Assembly: GCF_963676485.1 (NCBI RefSeq)
Contig: NZ_OY781114.1
Span: 1,054,001-1,118,000 of the forward strand
DNA from: an uncultured Cohaesibacter sp.
GTDB taxonomy: Bacteria > Pseudomonadota > Alphaproteobacteria > Rhizobiales > Cohaesibacteraceae
Length of the DNA stretch: 64,000 bases
Direction: 5' to 3'
The notes under the pieces were generated by a model. That model did not search any database. It was not told where the DNA came from and saw only the letters and a list, made by a program, of their open reading frames with translations. The translations under genes were made by a program, and so were the position numbers. Position 1 is the first letter of the stretch, and each line of letters starts with the position of its first letter. This document shows positions 40,306-41,372 of the stretch, piece after piece.

Positions 40306-40332
40306 TCGCTTCGGCACATACAAGATATTGCA

Positions 40333-40366
40333 AACCCGGTCAGCAGCTCTGGCCGGGTTTTCTTTT
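40333..40366 (+). terminator. trxA terminator
   Basis: AACCCGGTCA (40333-40342) pairs with TGGCCGGGTT (40350-40359), one G-T pair, 7-base loop, then TTCTTTT. Confidence 0.88.
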
Positions 40367-40444: not shown

Positions 40445-40491
40445 CAAACGAAAGCCCACCGGGGGAGGAGGTCCGGTGGGCTTCGTTGGAG
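40445..40491 (-). ncRNA. CcsR-like small RNA hairpin 3 (CCTCCTCCC loop)
   Basis: AAGCCCACCGG (40452-40462) pairs perfectly with 40473-40483; with one bulge the stem extends to ACGAA/TTCGT. The 10-base loop reads ACCTCCTCCC on the minus strand, an anti-Shine-Dalgarno motif. The minus strand continues TTTCGTTTG, so this last hairpin may also be the terminator of the whole transcript. Third of three such hairpins behind the DUF1127 gene. Confidence 0.7.
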
Positions 40492-40523
40492 GATCCAAAA
40501 CCGGGAGGAGGAAGTTTTGGATC
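40492..40523 (-). ncRNA. CcsR-like small RNA hairpin 2 (CCTCCTCCC loop)
   Basis: GATCCAAAAC (40492-40501) pairs perfectly with 40514-40523. The 12-base loop reads TTCCTCCTCCCG on the minus strand. The stem sequence is unlike those of its neighbours while the loop is the same, so the loop is what selection keeps. Confidence 0.7.
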
Positions 40524-40526
40524 GGA

Positions 40527-40554
40527 TCAGGCTTTGGGAGGAGGTAAAGCCTGA
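40527..40554 (-). ncRNA. CcsR-like small RNA hairpin 1 (CCTCCTCCC loop)
   Basis: TCAGGCTTT (40527-40535) pairs perfectly with AAAGCCTGA (40546-40554). The loop reads ACCTCCTCCC on the minus strand. First of three hairpins 57 bases behind the DUF1127 stop codon. In Rhodobacter the CcsR RNAs have this loop motif and are processed from the transcript of a DUF1127 gene; the arrangement here is the same. Confidence 0.72.
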
Positions 40555-40611
40555 ATTCTTAAGAAACTCGTGGCTTTCGCTTGGACTTTTGATCGTCAGC
40601 GAAAGACTTTT

Positions 40612-40767
40612 TTATTTTGCAGTAGCAGCTTCACGTGCAATGTCGCTGATGTCTGAACGGGAGATGCCCAGATCGTTAAGATCGCGGGTGCTCAAACGGT
40701 TCAGTTCTTCAACAGTGTCACGGTAGTTGCGCCACTGACGGTAGTTCTTCACAACAGTATTCATCAT
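40612..40767 (-). CDS. Small DUF1127 protein
   Basis: A 51-residue basic protein containing VVKNYRQWRNYRDTVEELNRLSTRDLNDLGISRSDISDIAREA, a clear DUF1127 (YjiS-like) domain. I take the ATG at 40767, because AAAGG lies nine bases before it; an in-frame ATG at 40776 directly abuts that site and is less likely. In related bacteria such proteins take part in stress adaptation and bind RNA or affect phosphate and carbon control. Three small-RNA hairpins follow on the same strand, and another stem (CTTTCGCT/AGCGAAAG, 40574-40605) lies right behind the stop codon. Confidence 0.88.
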   Translation of the reverse strand: MMNTVVKNYRQWRNYRDTVEELNRLSTRDLNDLGISRSDISDIAREAATAK

Positions 40768-40776
40768 TGTCGTCAT

Positions 40777-41372
40777 CCTTTGTTGCTATGTGGCATTTGA
40801 GGTTCAACTGCTTTTTCGAAAGCGTCTGATCTGTAACTCGTTTTAAAGTTCCTCATCACTTTCTTGATTATGTATATAGAACATGGCTCGGATTTTTTCA
40901 TCCCACAAGATTGCATAGCTGTCTTGACGATCATGCAATTCAATCCCATCTAAAAATCAAGCTATGCATTTTTGTAATGTCTAAATTTTTCGAAATAAAT
41001 TATCATTATTTTTCAATCACTTAAAAATGACCTTCTATACAACTATGGTACTAGGTAGATCCCACCGGCGGTTTTCATTGCATGGAACGCAAGGCTTGTT
41101 GGGCGGAAAAACGTCGTCTCCGGTGCAAAATCCTCTTTGAAACCACTTGAGAGAGACCATTTTTGACCCTCTCCAGCCCGCAAATCTGGATTTATATCGA
41201 TATAATTATTAGGCCAACACCAAAAAATGCATGGTATCTGCATGAAACTCTACAGACCGGACAGCACTCTTGGAACCAATGCGTGCCTCGACACCAAGGG
41301 GTAGGCGTCAAGATGCCAGAGGCATCTGCACGATACCCGCCGAAACAATGAAGGATGGAGAAATGAGAGCGA
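40777..41372. other. Intergenic region upstream of DUF1127 gene
   Basis: No gene is seen. The AT-rich part (40850-41040) should hold the promoter of the DUF1127-small RNA transcript; I could not fit a convincing sigma-32-type or sigma-70 promoter by eye. No terminator for folC, which ends at 41373 on the minus strand, was found. Confidence 0.45.

Follow-up and report, generated by a model that had tools for sequence, protein, structure and literature searches.

Among the closest known anti-Shine-Dalgarno (aSD) sRNAs is NfeR1 (Smr14C2) of Sinorhizobium meliloti, a member of the alpha-r14 family, which folds into three hairpins with variable stems and CCUCCUCCC in each loop and is reported to be activated by LsrB from its own promoter, carrying an LsrB-type box and a CTATAT element (PMC10746234). 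Its three loops are described as acting redundantly on translation-start regions (PMC7143759, PMC10746234), and alpha-r14 RNAs are defined as expressed, Hfq-independent RNAs of ~115-123 nt whose targets are repressed through the loops. SmelA075 and SmelA099 of the same species are likewise three- and four-hairpin aSD RNAs found in several copies per genome; the term DUF1127 has no occurrence in the main text of the report concerned (PMC3927594). In Rhodobacter sphaeroides, the arrangement defined as CIN1, or cuckoo RNA (RF02791), consists of a short DUF1127 gene followed on the same strand by CcsR-like aSD hairpins, with an RpoHI/RpoHII promoter (PMC10253847), and the four sRNAs CcsR1-4 are reported to be cut from the DUF1127 transcript by RNase E, with the help of the DUF1127 protein CcaF1 (PMC10253847, PMC8625941). 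Three-hairpin aSD RNAs and the link to DUF1127 are thus already in print (PMC3927594, PMC10253847). Small DUF1127 genes activated by VtlR (PMC12595884) are known from Brucella and Agrobacterium (atu1667), behind the same kind of box (PMC12595884, PMC7486931), given as GCAT-N3-TG-N3-T (PMC8844928, PMC7486931). In their accessible portions, these two accounts describe small proteins and the AbcR/VrsA RNAs, with no mention of aSD hairpins behind the genes (PMC12595884, PMC7486931), and DUF1127 proteins and an aSD sRNA are reported as separate LsrB/VtlR-controlled genes in other Hyphomicrobiales (PMC10746234, PMC12595884). Cohaesibacter was not named among the listed literature matches on sRNA, DUF1127 or LsrB, and its locus may nonetheless have been reported.

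The genome analysed here is that of an uncultured Cohaesibacter sp. (Cohaesibacteraceae, Hyphomicrobiales; 5.08 Mb in two contigs), and the window is the 64-kb stretch of it in which the locus was found (Table 1). The AddA protein encoded in the window shares 94% identity with its C. marisflavi counterpart, and a scan of named genomes yielded only four loci, of which two belong to Cohaesibacter. Both strands of the window were scanned for hairpins with a stem of 6 or more pairs and CTCCTCC in a loop no longer than 16 nt; the three matches are exactly hairpins 1 to 3, with no further hairpin of this type, and CCTCCTCCC lies within the 10-nt loop of all three, with CCUCCUCCC in each. Together with the PF06568 match, the scan confirms the three minus-strand hairpins with a shared loop core that the initial annotation had seen behind a 51-codon DUF1127 gene. 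Their stems had been called perfect, which holds for hairpin 1; the other two contain one G-U pair each.

Table 1. Coordinates of the features of the DUF1127-alpha-r14 locus (positions in the 64-kb window)
Feature	Coordinates	Strand	Remarks
Conserved upstream half, TTGCAT...	40938-40926	minus	TTGCAT in 13/14 orthologues
Putative LsrB/VtlR-type LysR operator	40927-40911	minus	TCAAGACAGCTATGCAA; conserved; best match in the 64-kb window
Published box GCAT-N3-TG-N3-T	40913-40925	read on plus	full fit
Probable -10 element	40879-40874	minus	CTATAT; within conserved block
DUF1127 gene	40767-40612	minus	51 codons + stop; PF06568, 55.6 bits (cut-off 23.3)
Fourth stem	40605-40574	minus	CTTTCGCT (40605-40598) with AGCGAAAG (40581-40574); 6 nt past stop codon
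alpha-r14 sRNA, whole Rfam match	40447-40559	minus	RF02344, 91.8 bits, full model 1-123
Hairpin 1	40554-40527	minus	9 pairs; aSD loop ACCTCCTCCC
Hairpin 2	40523-40492	minus	11 pairs incl. one G-U; aSD loop TCCTCCTCCC
Hairpin 3	40484-40451	minus	12 pairs incl. one G-U; aSD loop ACCTCCTCCC
Hairpin 3, 3' flank		minus	TTTCGTTTG after G+C-rich stem

The initial annotation had assigned the hairpins to a CcsR/cuckoo-type cluster and proposed a covariance-model search. This search gave a score of 33.0 bits (E 5e-06) with the CcsR1 model RF02791, under its cut-off of 65.3 bits, and of 91.8 bits with the alpha-r14 model RF02344, whose cut-off is 58.8 bits. The aSD hairpins behind a DUF1127 gene are as described, but the proper family is alpha-r14. 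The three copies, which the initial annotation had set against CcsR1-4 as standing in another order, do not amount to a reshuffled CcsR set, three hairpins being the alpha-r14 norm in the reported cases (PMC10746234, PMC3927594). Like NfeR1, the RNA has three hairpins with CCUCCUCCC in every loop on variable stems, and, as in the cuckoo RNA arrangement, they follow a short DUF1127 gene on one strand. Judged from its sequence, the locus is an alpha-r14, or 'cuckoo', RNA in the known DUF1127 plus CcsR-like ('CIN1') arrangement, here in Cohaesibacter. Matches to the 6C RNA and RNAI families of Rfam stayed below their own cut-offs and were rejected as apparent chance resemblances due to the C-rich hairpins.

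The 168-nt block folds at -63.1 kcal/mol, compared to a mean of -34.8 kcal/mol for shuffled sequences (z -8.25), and none of the 200 shuffles was equally good. Among 37 distinct family sequences, 97.3% of the stem cells are paired and 13 of the 32 stem pairs show changes on both sides. Double-change cells amount to 81, against a shuffled mean of 29.2 and 10 or fewer in slid controls, a comparison that is biased toward the real over the slid versions because the reference structure came from the window copy. The loops vary slightly: three exact copies of CCTCCTCCC are present in 16 of the 37 sequences, and the pattern [CT][CT]TCCTCCC, which overlooks loops such as ATCCTCCC, matches three times in 25 rows and twice in the other 12. 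The loop core is thus kept while the stems covary, in line with the constant loops on diverging stems that the initial annotation had seen in the window. The loop 9-mer is not enriched genome-wide (25 sites, and 25 for the reversed control), but 9 of its 25 sites fall in four hairpin loci.

With its 3' flank, hairpin 3 resembles a terminator and probably doubles as one; its 10-nt loop exceeds the loop limit of the terminator scan, which detected no minus-strand terminator-like site for DUF1127 between 40250 and 41300. Both observations would agree with hairpins whose role is confined to stabilising or terminating the DUF1127 mRNA, with no action in trans. We regard this as highly improbable, since a stabiliser has no need of a constant loop, whereas here the loop core persists on covarying stems and is retained even at loci in which DUF1127 was not detected, and since the NfeR1 loops are reported to work in trans (PMC10746234). 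A plus-strand terminator-like hairpin, distinct from hairpin 3, was found after trxA at 40332-40360 (1 site, 1.2 expected in shuffles), and the convergent units therefore seem to have their own ends.

Over 45 codons of the DUF1127 gene in 14 orthologues, the number of variable sites is 7 at the first, 8 at the second and 31 at the third codon position, which shows constraint at the protein level. A second in-frame ATG at 40776 is not kept in all orthologues. The plus-strand neighbour is trxA (thioredoxin) and the other neighbour is a Mur-ligase-type gene, consistent with folC. Both adjoin 13 of the 14 orthologues; in the remaining one, the available stretch includes only folC. The placement between trxA and folC given in the initial annotation holds for the window copy; two more copies above the cut-off sit elsewhere in the genome. 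A protein of this family from Salmonella has been reported without evidence of RNA binding (PMC12501420), which calls for caution against over-reading an RNA role of the small protein.

The 5' leader of the gene carries GATGAGGAACTTTAAAACGA at 40833-40857, which is identical in 9 of the 14 orthologues and partly retained in the others, with no conserved reading frame seen over this stretch in the 14. A leader uORF as reported for the S. meliloti DUF1127 attenuator (PMC12218461) was considered and rejected by eye, because indels and the loss of start codons disrupt the upstream frames, for example a 58-aa ORF at 40773-40949, across the 14 orthologues.

Upstream of the DUF1127 gene lies a putative LysR-type operator. 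Read on the opposite strand, it is GCATAGCTGTCTT and fits the VtlR/LsrB box fully; the box consensus is present in all 14 aligned orthologues, with the core CAAGACAGCTATGCAA in 12 and CAAGCCAGTCATGCAA in the other two. The conserved TTGCAT half and the ATGCAA of the operator form an interrupted palindrome. About 33 nt after the operator core, CTATATACA is found in 14/14 orthologues; its CTATAT is the same hexamer as in the published alpha-r14 promoter (PMC10746234) and would place the start of transcription near 40867. The operator, sited upstream of CTATAT like the LsrB/VtlR box in Sinorhizobium, would then span -58 to -46, compared to -61 to -49 in the abcR1 promoter of S. meliloti as reported (PMC8844928). 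By eye, the window site agrees with the VtlR motif CAATGCAGCCATGCA (PMC12595884) at 12 of its 15 positions and that of copy 2 at 13. The operator block is also present in the paralogues, in varied form. Little can be recognised in the -35 region, where a TTGACA-type scan gave no match.

Bases CTTG...CCAT, which resemble sites of the heat-shock sigma factor RpoH, occur at 40909-40883 and are kept in 10 of the 14 orthologues, so that RpoH may still contribute to control. The RpoH-type promoter that the initial annotation had expected upstream of 40767 was not found in convincing form; the LysR-type box and CTATAT stand there instead. This bears on the possibility that the locus is a strict Rhodobacter CcsR-type unit, that is a stress operon driven by RpoHI/RpoHII whose transcript is cut into a number of separate small RNAs. 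The order of DUF1127 and aSD hairpins is that of the Rhodobacter operon (PMC10253847), and the CcsR1 match and the CTTG...CCAT bases would fit. However, the CcsR1 score falls under its cut-off whereas alpha-r14 clears its own by a wide margin, more orthologues retain the LysR box consensus and CTATATACA than retain CTTG...CCAT, and three joined hairpins are found here in contrast to four sRNAs in Rhodobacter, all of which makes this explanation unlikely.

The alpha-r14 combination of LsrB-type box and CTATAT is present by sequence and conservation, upstream of DUF1127 and not, as in NfeR1, directly before the sRNA. In a stand-alone mode like that of NfeR1, a separate sRNA promoter would lie between DUF1127 and hairpin 1, the DUF1127 gene forming a separate unit. 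Such alpha-r14 loci do exist: in two loci (L077 and L083) no DUF1127 gene was detected and the operator lies ~95 nt ahead of the first aSD loop, so that the gene may have disappeared from between promoter and sRNA or may never have been acquired. For the window copy we consider such a mode very doubtful, as its operator and -10 element sit upstream of DUF1127 and the 57-nt gap contains just the fourth stem and a short linker, and as the stem of hairpin 1 in copy 3 begins only 16 nt past the stop codon.

The window operator scores 26.0 bits, against 11.8 bits for the runner-up in 64 kb, with a matrix whose training excluded its own genome and included its orthologues. The consensus GCAT-N3-TG-N3-T by itself is weak, with 16 sites in the window. 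By pattern search, the operator is found in 38 of the 39 loci of the family above the alpha-r14 cut-off; since the boxes were picked by pattern, the agreement among training boxes is partly built in. With an 18-box matrix, an upstream site was obtained at no more than 1 in 100 first-order shuffles in 11 of 22 non-training loci (21 from other families, and L054), and the other 11 failed. The passing sites vary in distance from the first aSD motif (73-498 nt) and in score (7.8-20.9 bits). Downstream controls exceeded 10 bits in 3 of the 22 loci (L059, 23.6; L097, 11.9; L095, 10.8), that of L059 outscoring every upstream site; each of these three holds a further DUF1127 match downstream. Genome-wide, seven operator-like sites with at most 2 mismatches were found, compared to one for the control. 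Two of them are alpha-r14 promoters and one (C1:2480335) lies inside a gene, while the operator of copy 2 has more than 2 mismatches and hence is absent from the seven. In 93 kb of the other loci of this genome there are 13 operator matches of at least 9 bits. At this level, neither the fourth DUF1127 gene (C1:607515) nor the weak fourth hairpin locus has a match in its 3-kb stretch.

A LysR gene of this genome adjoins trxB (TIGR01292, 405.9 bits), as lsrB is reported to do in Rhizobiales (PMC11975290); its putative orthology to lsrB is drawn from synteny and family membership. Since LsrB activates NfeR1 and VtlR activates DUF1127 genes in the reports cited above, control of the DUF1127-alpha-r14 unit by this trxB-linked LysR regulator would be the simplest reading, and a redox-linked regulator probably switches the locus on. 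Beside the LysR gene lies an alpha-r15 (AbcR-like) match of 33.2 bits, below its cut-off of 40. An operator match ~47 nt upstream of it is weak (9.8 bits), the best one of that 8.5-kb stretch (16.5 bits) being elsewhere.

Three alpha-r14 loci of the genome are above the cut-off, in addition to a weak fourth of 31.7 bits and a doubtful fifth of 21.5 bits. Three of the four DUF1127 matches lie just upstream of the three alpha-r14 loci above the cut-off; the other, at C1:607515-607595 (L033), is in a 151-aa open frame with no alpha-r14 match nearby. Across 101 genomes, RF02344 matched 43 at E <=0.001 and 27 above the cut-off, the latter including the 20 listed as own genome, same genus or same family, in a listing that leaves out 38 genomes with no match. 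A total of 68 hairpin loci, drawn from the matching genomes and not comprising every match, were compared. Five of them (L005, L076, L085, L098 and L100), weak matches whose aSD hairpins are absent or doubtful, were set aside. DUF1127 lies within 400 nt upstream in 47 of the 63 others (46 automatically and L086 by inspection) and in 37 of the 39 family loci above the cut-off. Those 39 exclude the family loci below the cut-off, among which L089 has four DUF1127 matches and L004, L082, L088 and L090 gave none. The sub-threshold fourth aSD locus of this genome (L004, C1:4475296-4475397), one of these loci with no DUF1127 detected, has TTGACA and a GTTCACATTTAGTGAAC palindrome close downstream of it, and its relative L082 has another palindrome-like stretch in the same place; this different promoter suggests a different regulator.

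A fourth stem without the loop motif, which had been pointed out at 40574-40605, lies exactly there. Its exact arms occur in 19 of the 39 family loci, of which 14 belong to the window type and 5 to the copy-2 type, so that two of the three copy types have them; the search, being for exact arms, could overlook variants in the remaining 20. The loop ranges from 4 to 16 nt, and arms that stay fixed around such a variable loop suggest that the stem matters as a structure. None of its pairs covaries, so that the support for it is conservation alone. The alignment of the copy-3 group leaves no room for the stem, with 16 nt from the stop codon to hairpin 1 in the copy of this genome. The fourth stem may thus be a 3'-end stabiliser or a processing element, and from its distribution it cannot be essential for all family members.

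The explanation that we favour, and hold to be probable, is that of a trans-acting alpha-r14/cuckoo sRNA that forms the 3' part of a LysR-activated DUF1127 transcript and is freed from it by cutting. Transcription would proceed from the CTATAT promoter, starting near 40867, with an LsrB/VtlR-type LysR regulator bound at 40911-40927 as the putative activator. The predicted transcript comprises, in this order, the DUF1127 message, the short stem, an unpaired linker and the three aSD hairpins, the last of which is probably the terminator. A nuclease, by analogy RNase E, would cut the linker at ~40573-40555 and release an RNA of ~110-120 nt, whose three equivalent CCUCCUCCC loops, as in NfeR1, would base-pair with many mRNAs at the Shine-Dalgarno region and prevent their translation. 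By analogy with CcaF1 in Rhodobacter, the small DUF1127 protein may bind RNA and aid this maturation. It is a tentative extension, on the unlikely side, that Cohaesibacter fuses an LsrB/VtlR-controlled DUF1127 gene and an aSD sRNA in one operon in which the fourth stem is the cut site, or the site of action of the protein, so that the protein would set the yield of its own sRNA.

If the fused-operon reading is true, one gene order answers to a redox-linked LysR regulator in Cohaesibacter and to heat-shock sigma factors in Rhodobacter. The locus places a well-studied family of rhizobial sRNAs, together with its regulator box, in Cohaesibacter, a marine genus, and it suggests that different bacterial orders have wired the DUF1127-sRNA unit to different stress inputs. 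The operator and the fourth stem are the parts worth testing, and the copies with and without this stem offer a natural comparison set for the cutting of an sRNA from the mRNA of a small protein.

Candidate targets were listed as sites of the form GGGAGGAG-N5-11-ATG, of which the genome contains 16, compared to 3 for the control. Six of them head open frames of at least 140 aa, which encode a universal stress protein, a DctP solute-binding protein, a zinc dehydrogenase, an aldo/keto reductase, an FAD enzyme and one protein without Pfam match. Shine-Dalgarno sites being common, these are candidates and not evidence of regulation.

Behind two DUF1127 matches, L036 (genome G087, ~1500-1975) has an array of three alpha-r14 units with nine aSD motifs. 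L099 (genome G029, ~1470-1900) contains nine CTCCTCCC motifs, three of which were scored as hairpins, and L086 has an extra CTCCTCCC near 1265, in the 5' leader of its DUF1127-alpha-r14 locus.
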